Source: Candidatus Omnitrophota bacterium (lineage in GTDB: Bacteria > Omnitrophota > Gorgyraeia > 2-01-FULL-45-10). Taken from it: 32,656 nucleotides of DNA. The stretch is taken from assembly GCA_030695905.1 (NCBI GenBank), contig JAUYOL010000010.1:1-32656 (forward strand). The letters are read 5' to 3'. Both the position numbers and the translations under genes were made by a program. Below, piece after piece: positions 1-8,426 of the stretch. The number at the start of each line of letters is the position of its first letter. Position 1 is the stretch's first letter. The notes under the pieces were generated by a model, which saw only the letters and a program-made list of their open reading frames with translations, did not search any database and was not told the DNA's origin.

Positions 1-16
1 GCTGAGCTACACCCAC
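1..16 (-). tRNA. 5' fragment of a tRNA gene cut by the window edge
   Basis: Read on the minus strand, bases 16 to 1 give GTGGGTG, TA, GCTC, AGC. This matches a tRNA 5' acceptor strand, positions 8-9 and the start of the D arm. The anticodon lies outside the window, so the amino acid cannot be called. It sits 28 bases beyond the 3' end of tRNA-Arg in the same orientation, so it probably belongs to the same tRNA cluster. Confidence 0.6.
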
Positions 17-44
17 CACAAAACTCTTTGCTTCTTCATAAAAT

Positions 45-324
45 TGGCGTCCCTGGCCTGATTCGAACAGGCGACCCTCTGCTTAGCTTACCGCACTGGA
101 TTACTCCAGCCAATTAATGTTGCGGTCTGGACTATGTCTTCACCGTTTCAGGTGTGCAGCGTATAGTCTCTGAGGACTCCCACTTAGTTTCGAGTGGTTG
201 CCTGCAAATTGCCCTGTTTATGACAGGGGTTCCTTGCATACAGCTGCATTCATTCTATGCGTTTATATTCCGCACAGAAGCTCCTATAGAAGGCAGATGC
301 TCTATCCAACTGAGCTACAGGGAC
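45..324 (-). tRNA. tRNA-Arg(UCU) interrupted by a group I intron
   Basis: On the minus strand the gene starts with acceptor GTCCCTG at 324 and ends with CAGGGAC, discriminator G and an encoded CCA at 45. The D arm (GCTC...GAGC) and T arm (GCCTG-TTCGAAT-CAGGC) are intact. With 203 nt removed, the anticodon arm becomes TCTGC-CTTCTAA-GCAGA, a seven-base loop with anticodon TCT. The 5' exon spans about 324-290 and the 3' exon about 86-45. The exon boundaries follow the group I rules of a U before the 5' splice site and a G at the intron end. They are inferred and could shift by one or two bases. Confidence 0.9.
87..289 (-). ncRNA. Group I self-splicing intron in the tRNA-Arg anticodon loop
   Basis: The 203-nt insert splits the anticodon after its first base. 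The core is recognisable on the minus strand: GACTAT (168-163) and ATAGTC (135-130) are perfectly complementary and sit in contexts typical of P7 of the IC3 tRNA introns (AGAGACTATA and GAAGACATAGTCC). The exon end CTT can pair with intron AGGAG near 285-281, giving a U-G wobble at the cut as P1 requires. The intron ends in G at 87. It has no room for a homing endonuclease, so it is a minimal ribozyme that depends on its host for spread. The subgroup is inferred from motif similarity only. Confidence 0.85.
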
Positions 325-342
325 GTCAAAAGATATATATAT

Positions 343-419
343 TGGTCGGGAAGGCGAGATTTGAACTCGCGACCTTCTGGTCCCAAACCAGACGCGCTAG
401 CCAGCTGCGCTACTTCCCG
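343..419 (-). tRNA. tRNA-Pro(UGG)
   Basis: The minus strand gives acceptor CGGGAAG pairing with CTTCCCG, discriminator A and an encoded CCA ending at 343. The anticodon arm is TCTGG-TTTGGGA-CCAGA with anticodon TGG, and the T arm is GCGAG-TTCAAAT-CTCGC. All stems close perfectly. It lies 18 bases upstream of tRNA-Arg and probably shares its transcript. Confidence 0.97.
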
Positions 420-7544: not shown

Positions 7545-7994
7545 ATGGATAAAGTAATAACAAGCAATAGGAAGGCCCATCACGACTATTTCGTGATAGA
7601 GAGCCTTGAGGCAGGAATACAGCTAAAAGGGACCGAAGTTAAGTCCATAAGGGCTGGTGGAGCAAGCCTGGCGGATAGCTTCGCGAAGCTTGAAGGTTCC
7701 GAGCTTTTGTTGTATAATATGCACGTAGCGCCTTACGAATTCGGTAATATATACAATACGGATCCTGTAAGGCCAAGAAAGTTGCTTCTTCATAAACGTC
7801 AGATACAGAAGCTTGCCGCTGAAGTCTCAACGAAGCATCTTGCACTAATACCTCTTAAGCTTTATTTCAAAAATGGACTTGTAAAAGTGGATTTGGCCCT
7901 CGCGAAGGGCAAGAAGCATTATGATAAGCGCGAAGCCATAAAGCAGCGCGAATCGGATAAAGAATTAAAAAGAGTATTAAAAAGCAGAAAATAG
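7545..7994 (+). CDS. smpB: SsrA-binding protein SmpB
   Basis: SmpB binds the tRNA-like domain of tmRNA and delivers it to stalled ribosomes for trans-translation. The 149-residue protein shows the family blocks HHDYFVIESLEAGIQLKGTEVKSIRAG, LYNMHVAPYEFGNIYNTDPVRPRKLLLHKRQI (given here in part), LKLYFKNGLVKVDLALAKGKK and the basic C-terminal tail beginning HYDKREAIKQRE. The ssrA gene starts 14 bases after its stop, so protein and RNA partner are probably on one transcript. It is the only protein gene on the plus strand here. Confidence 0.96.
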   Translation: MDKVITSNRKAHHDYFVIESLEAGIQLKGTEVKSIRAGGASLADSFAKLEGSELLLYNMHVAPYEFGNIYNTDPVRPRKLLLHKRQIQKLAAEVSTKHLALIPLKLYFKNGLVKVDLALAKGKKHYDKREAIKQRESDKELKRVLKSRK

Positions 7995-8007: not shown

Positions 8008-8426
8008 GGGGGTGAAAGGCTTCGACCCAGATAAGCATGACAAGGGTGGCATGTAGAGGTCGTCAGGAGGCCTCTTAAAACACCTGACAAATATCAAATG
8101 CTGAAACTCTAAACGTTCCGGCATCAGTAGATCAGCTTCTTGCAACCATGCAAGTGGTTAAAGGCGCTGCTCCACTGGCAAGCGTTGCTCTCTAAATAGA
8201 GCAACCCGTCTTCTGATCCAGCCTGTGGGGTTAGAAAGACGTCATTAACAGGATAGTCTCGATTTTTTTCAGTCCTTGGGGATCGGGATGAAATTTTTAA
8301 GGACTCAGCTGCCGGAAATTCCGCCTGTTGAAGTTCCGGCGGTAAGATGAAAAAGCGGGATAAACATAGTAGAGGCTCTTGATCTGATGTTTGGGCACGC
8401 GGGTTCGAATCCCGCCACCTCCACCA
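8008..8426 (+). ncRNA. ssrA: Transfer-messenger RNA (tmRNA)
   Basis: This is a one-piece tmRNA of 419 nt. The 5' end GGGGGTGAAAGGCTTCGAC and the 3' end, with T arm CGGG-TTCGAAT-CCCG and CACCTCC-A-CCA, form the tRNA-like domain; the acceptor strands pair with one G-U. Pseudoknot 1 is visible at about 8054-8088: GAGGTC pairs with GGCCTC, and GTCAGG inside pairs with CCTGAC. A further hairpin, GTTGCTCT / AGAGCAAC, brackets the tag stop codon. It acts with SmpB to release stalled ribosomes and tag incomplete proteins. Mature ends are taken from the acceptor stem. Confidence 0.95.
8100..8195 (+). other. tmRNA tag reading frame, unusually long
   Basis: Counting 11 bases after pseudoknot 1, as in E. 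coli tmRNA, gives a resume codon GCT at 8100. The frame stays open for 31 codons and stops at TAA 8193-8195 inside a hairpin. The tag would begin AETLNVPASV and end APLASVAL. Most known tags have about 8 to 20 residues and end in a form of ALAA; this one ends in VAL. Both other frames hit a stop within four codons, which supports the frame. The exact resume codon is inferred. Confidence 0.6.

Follow-up and report, generated by a model that had tools for sequence, protein, structure and literature searches.

The window analysed here is a stretch of 32,656 nucleotides from a Candidatus Omnitrophota bacterium (assembly GCA_030695905.1, contig JAUYOL010000010.1; contig C10 of source genome G000), and its first positions hold a conserved Pro-Arg-His tRNA cluster on the minus strand. 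The tRNA-Pro(UGG) gene (343..419, ARAGORN) lies upstream of an intron-interrupted tRNA-Arg(UCU) gene (324..45), and the 5' end of tRNA-His (1..22) is truncated by the contig end, with the rest in contig C31 according to an exact contig overlap of 79 nt and ARAGORN analysis of C31. Run without its intron option, ARAGORN missed tRNA-Arg(UCU) and reported only tRNA-Pro, tRNA-Leu and tmRNA in the window; with introns allowed, it returned tRNA-Arg(tct) with a 203-nt intron at exactly 45..324, in agreement with the host tRNA, coordinates and intron length given in a preliminary description of this DNA. Standard tRNA finders miss such interrupted genes, so that genomes seem to be without an essential tRNA.

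Using cmscan on the window, the covariance-model check that the preliminary description had proposed, we obtained a match to the Rfam family Intron_gpI (RF00028) at 299..108 of the minus strand with 53.7 bits (E 4e-11), only just above the gathering score of 50. The precursor folds with a z-score of -4.5 relative to shuffled sequences. A hit to YrlA (RF02553, E 6e-4) overlapping two tRNA halves scored 27.9 bits where the threshold is 69 and was attributed to chance. Positions 324..45 of the minus strand are confirmed as a tRNA-Arg(UCU) gene carrying a group I intron between U34 and C35.

The 5' exon (290..324; ARAGORN -i, 100% BLAST match) ends in CTGCCTT, its last base U34 (window position 290) being the first base of the anticodon, while the 3' exon (45..86; ARAGORN, BLAST) begins CTAAGC at C35 (position 86) and encodes CCA. 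Between them lies the intron (87..289, minus strand), reading CTATAGGAG...GCGGTAAG and ending in G at position 87; it is identified by the RF00028 match, homologous introns at the same site and covariation. Joining the exons yielded a normal tRNA-Arg(UCU) cloverleaf with the UCU anticodon restored, as recognised by ARAGORN. P1 (281..292, minus strand), invariant in the 20 aligned relatives, pairs exon CUU (292-290) with GAG (283-281); the 5' splice site is marked by a U34.G wobble in 20/20 aligned introns, and a terminal G occurs in all listed introns at the tRNA-Arg(UCU) site; the same two exon ends also fit all 28 introns found there. The exon ends (...CUGCCUU / CUAAGC...) place the cut after the first anticodon base, where the preliminary description had put it. 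ARAGORN itself set the splice boundary one base later, a placement at odds with the U.G and terminal-G rule and excluded by the related intron of genome G012, whose first base is T and which would then yield a UUU anticodon.

Ribozyme fold and covariation

All core helices of a group I intron could be assigned on the minus strand from the window's own sequence, and were compared in an alignment with relatives sharing the core of the window copy (A-type introns). P3 (155..248) pairs UGCAGC (248-243) with GCUGCA (160-155), and P8 (141..154) pairs CACC (154-151) with GGUG (144-141), each with compensatory changes in three pairs. P4 (203..238; strands 238-233 and 208-203) encloses P5 (228-223 and 217-212), and it is followed by P6 and P6a (174..202), whose loop at about 192-185 corresponds to the position of a homing-endonuclease ORF in relatives. 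The guanosine-binding helix P7 (130..168; GACUA at 168-164 with UAGUC at 134-130), detected by cmscan and in the alignment, is invariant in the 20 relatives and bears out the recognisable P7 of the preliminary description. P9 (91..125; strands 125-121 and 95-91) continues into P9a (109-106 and 99-96), which ends in a GUAA tetraloop (104-101); a GNRA L9 is found in nearly all aligned rows.

Covariation was assessed over P1, P2, P3, P4, P5, P6, P7, P8, P9 and P9a in 20 A-type introns from which the endonuclease ORF had been removed. The helix pair cells were intact in 98.1% of 995 cases, and 23 of the 50 pairs showed double-sided changes. When partners were slid by 1-3 columns as a control, pairing fell to 30-45% and doubly changed pairs to 2-7; the structure was derived from the window's own sequence, a bias in its favour over the slid versions as regards percentage paired that does not account for the doubly changed pairs. 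P7 and P4 hardly vary across the alignment, so that they neither strengthen nor weaken the case for the fold, and P7 adds no covariation. With 98% of helix cells pairing and compensatory change in 23/50 pairs, the ribozyme fold is under maintenance in the relatives.

Distribution in the phylum and the homing endonuclease

When 384 sampled Omnitrophota genomes were searched with the intron's 3' half as query, 44 had a match, and in 28 of these the exon ends could be read and placed the intron at exactly tRNA-Arg(UCU) 34|35. The 28 genomes span more than 10 families and carry the same Pro-Arg-His tRNA cluster; among the 57 genomes nearest to G000, 35 have a group I match. The core of the window intron is shared by 21 of the 28 (A-type), and the other seven (B-type; L230, L231, L232, L235, L236, L237 and L239) have a different core, AGAGACTTTACAC, together with a 3' end (P9 and the last 40 nt) almost identical to that of the A-type. 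This shared end suggests that recombination or coconversion may have acted on the 3' side. The preliminary description had called the window intron minimal, which is fair for 203 nt, although the length is not exceptional, other copies measuring 191-199 nt.

The uninterrupted 13-base anticodon-arm motif CTGCCTTCTAAGC occurs in 166/384 genomes but in only three of the 28 intron bearers (G001, G263 and G355), leaving 25/28 without it; the arm sequence varies within the phylum, and elsewhere absence of the motif is no evidence of an intron. Within family f1, tRNA-Arg(UCU) is interrupted in G000, G001, G012, G017, G019 and G021; in G002 a contig end truncates it within the intron, and about ten other genomes carry it uninterrupted. 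In the G001 bin, the Pro-Arg(UCU) locus is present in both forms, interrupted and uninterrupted (G001:C20 and G001:C5; L203, L204), perhaps through mixed binning of species, the other reading being a cell with both alleles.

No endonuclease ORF was found in the window intron, its longest stop-free frame measuring 40 aa, and the preliminary description was right in this respect. In 14 A-type introns of 638-782 nt, the P6 loop contains an intact PD-(D/E)XK homing-endonuclease gene, which starts with HHTK; nearly every copy also has an AGGAGGT-like ribosome site. Two intact proteins matched PF11645 (PDDEXK_5) with 94-105 bits (E 1e-26 to 1e-30; cut-off 26 bits), and a profile of nine endonuclease sequences had PDB 2OST as its sole match (E 8e-7). 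We take 2OST to be I-Ssp6803I, the enzyme that belongs to the tRNA-fMet intron of Synechocystis, and the conserved D37 and Q51-x-K53 (D..QxK motif) of the relatives' proteins fit its catalytic motif. G019 retains an internally deleted remnant of the ORF and G000 only a short P6a loop. In the intron tree, four family-f1 introns group together (support 100/99), and G000 is nearest by path to G017, a full-ORF bearer, in a weakly supported pairing within that clade. The simplest reading of these sequences is that the endonuclease was lost in the G000 lineage, and the window intron thus appears to be a member of a mobile family minus its endonuclease. Synechococcus phage Sf-FR1 (PV340855.1:163920-164318) and viral contigs L250-L252 also encode proteins related to the intron endonuclease (39-44% identity); phages or viruses are a possible route of transfer.

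Probable splicing of the sole tRNA-Arg(UCU)

The source genome (1.82 Mb), whose closest relatives by RNase PH are Candidatus Omnitrophota, is 97.5% complete, and its assembly contains no second tRNA-Arg(UCU) gene, the copy for which the preliminary description had recommended a search: none was present among the 44 other tRNA matches (cmsearch), where the arginine anticodons include ACG, TCG and CCT and not TCT, none was retrieved with the spliced gene as query, and the motif CTGCCTTCTAAGC is absent from G000. The tRNA-Arg(CCU) gene is uninterrupted. An exact 35-nt match at C31:1-35, considered as a second UCU gene, proved to be the same locus, C10 and C31 overlapping by exactly 79 nt and C31 continuing beyond the overlap into tRNA-His. 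As far as the assembly shows, the interrupted gene is the only UCU tRNA gene. AGA accounts for 105 of the 376 Arg codons (28%) in 21 window genes, and with its only UCU gene interrupted the cell is probably dependent on the ribozyme to read AGA and for normal protein synthesis.

The small tRNA-Arg(CCU) intron BbgpI of Bartonella splices in vivo and in vitro (PMC7717549), which makes activity of the window intron likely by analogy. Splicing in the source cell would follow the two-step, guanosine-initiated pathway. The Pro-Arg-His transcript would fold with the intron aligning the anticodon stem, P1 holding the 5' exon end CUU while the first attack, after U34, comes from an external guanosine that occupies P7; U34, once released, would then attack after the last intron G, so that U34 is ligated to C35 and the UCU anticodon is re-formed. 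Intron-less tRNA-Arg(UCU) alleles would be entered by homing, through the PD-(D/E)XK endonuclease expressed from the P6-loop ORF of the relatives, and the window copy, having lost this ORF, would be inherited passively while the cell needs splicing to read AGA. We hold with high confidence to this account as a whole, in which a splicing intron of a homing family, its endonuclease ORF lost, restores the sole tRNA-Arg(UCU) on which the cell relies.

The window copy might instead be dead, an intact tRNA-Arg(UCU) outside the assembly serving in its place. The gene lies 45 nt from the contig end, at an overlap of k-mer length; a 79-nt overlap of this kind typically arises where an assembly graph branches, so that strain variation, and with it an intron-less allele in the source population, is possible. 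The remaining incompleteness of the genome and the two forms in G001 point the same way. We nevertheless consider a dead copy very unlikely, given that the core helices of the window intron are all intact and under compensatory constraint in relatives, that its exons are 100% identical to those of intact relatives, and that 25 of the 28 intron-bearing genomes are without the uninterrupted motif. Unlikelier still is a need for a dedicated protein cofactor in splicing, or an intron acting as a switch of AGA decoding that might sense, for example, guanosine supply or the conditions for RNA folding. Group I introns presumably require some protein help in vivo (PMC7717549), and the only tRNA-Arg(UCU) would make a sensitive control point, yet the sequence indicates no sensor, and related introns are gained and lost between genomes in the manner of selfish elements. 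An assembly chimaera, the intron being misjoined into the tRNA, is conceivable for a contig edge in a metagenome-assembled genome and is made negligible by identical junctions in other assembled genomes, including L089 and L090 with introns of 641 nt and 482 nt. A splicing intron in the sole UCU gene is the reading we retain; the window intron is real and well supported and probably essential, and such introns are common in Omnitrophota.

Known introns and further insertion sites

Group I introns of bacterial tRNAs have been reported in Leu(UAA), fMet, Ile2 and Arg(CCU) (PMC8450103, PMC4033280, PMC7717549). Introns of 22-49 nt in cyanobacterial Arg(ACG), Gly and Lys have also been claimed as group I (PMC5733544), lengths that are far below a group I core. 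A 2025 preprint by Nakagawa et al. (cited in PMC12641178) announces in its title group I introns with a new insertion site in tRNA genes of Patescibacteria, likewise an uncultured bacterial phylum with tRNA hosts. Our literature search, which covered little of the specialist work and does not establish priority, retrieved no earlier report of a group I intron in a bacterial tRNA-Arg(UCU). As far as checked, the window thus presents a known mechanism in a new host tRNA, and tRNA-Arg(UCU) joins the short list of bacterial tRNAs with group I introns.

The tRNA-Leu(UAA) introns of cyanobacteria and plastids are likewise anticodon-loop group I introns, known to self-splice, and differ in host tRNA and phylum. 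Their position, U34|35, is that of the tRNA-Arg(UCU) intron. The alphaproteobacterial tRNA-Arg(CCU) introns (Agrobacterium, Bartonella BbgpI) are similarly small and also sit in an AGR-box arginine tRNA. CCT repeats flank BbgpI at the CCU anticodon, whereas the host here is UCU, cut at U34|C35, and the CCU tRNA is uninterrupted. The Synechocystis tRNA-fMet intron with I-Ssp6803I shares the anticodon location and, with the relatives of the window intron, the PD-(D/E)XK family, but it occupies a different tRNA, and the window copy has lost its endonuclease gene. The Azoarcus tRNA-Ile(CAU) intron, also a very short bacterial tRNA intron in a different tRNA, measures about 205 nt and has a GNRA-capped P9.

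Further introns were observed in other Omnitrophota tRNAs: in Tyr(GUA) (L033-L036, L039) and Asn(GUU) (L037, L038, L040, L042, L043, L046, L050, L052, L053, L058), both cut at 35|36, and in fMet (L044, L047, L057), cut after U33. These sites were judged from the rejoined exons of eight representative loci, the remaining loci being assigned by similar exon ends. ARAGORN had labelled some of them Thr, Asp or Arg(TCG), and five such loci, once rejoined, were Asn(GUU); its labels Trp, Gly, Glu, SeC, Pyl, Stop and Ser were boundary errors at the Arg site, where the exon ends join to UCU.

We regard it as fairly probable that Omnitrophota tRNAs harbour phylum-wide, still mobile group I introns (Arg-UCU 34|35, Asn-GUU and Tyr-GUA 35|36, fMet), that one site displays the full homing cycle (empty site, intron with endonuclease, decay, loss of the endonuclease) and that AGA decoding is wholly ribozyme-dependent in many cells. 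With all stages present at one site, intron gain, decay of the endonuclease and loss can be measured, in a phylum that lacks a cultured model and has seen few intron studies.

G000 also contains two 23S rRNA fragments that are dissimilar and both carry a group I-like insertion (L002, G000:C21:4065-4321; L243, end of G000:C43), and one of contigs C21 and C43 may be foreign to this genome; the C43 insertion includes an ORF that is LAGLIDADG-like by eye. Elsewhere in the window, an ordinary tmRNA gene (8008-8426, tag peptide AAPLASVAL) directly follows an ORF resembling SmpB (7545-7994).
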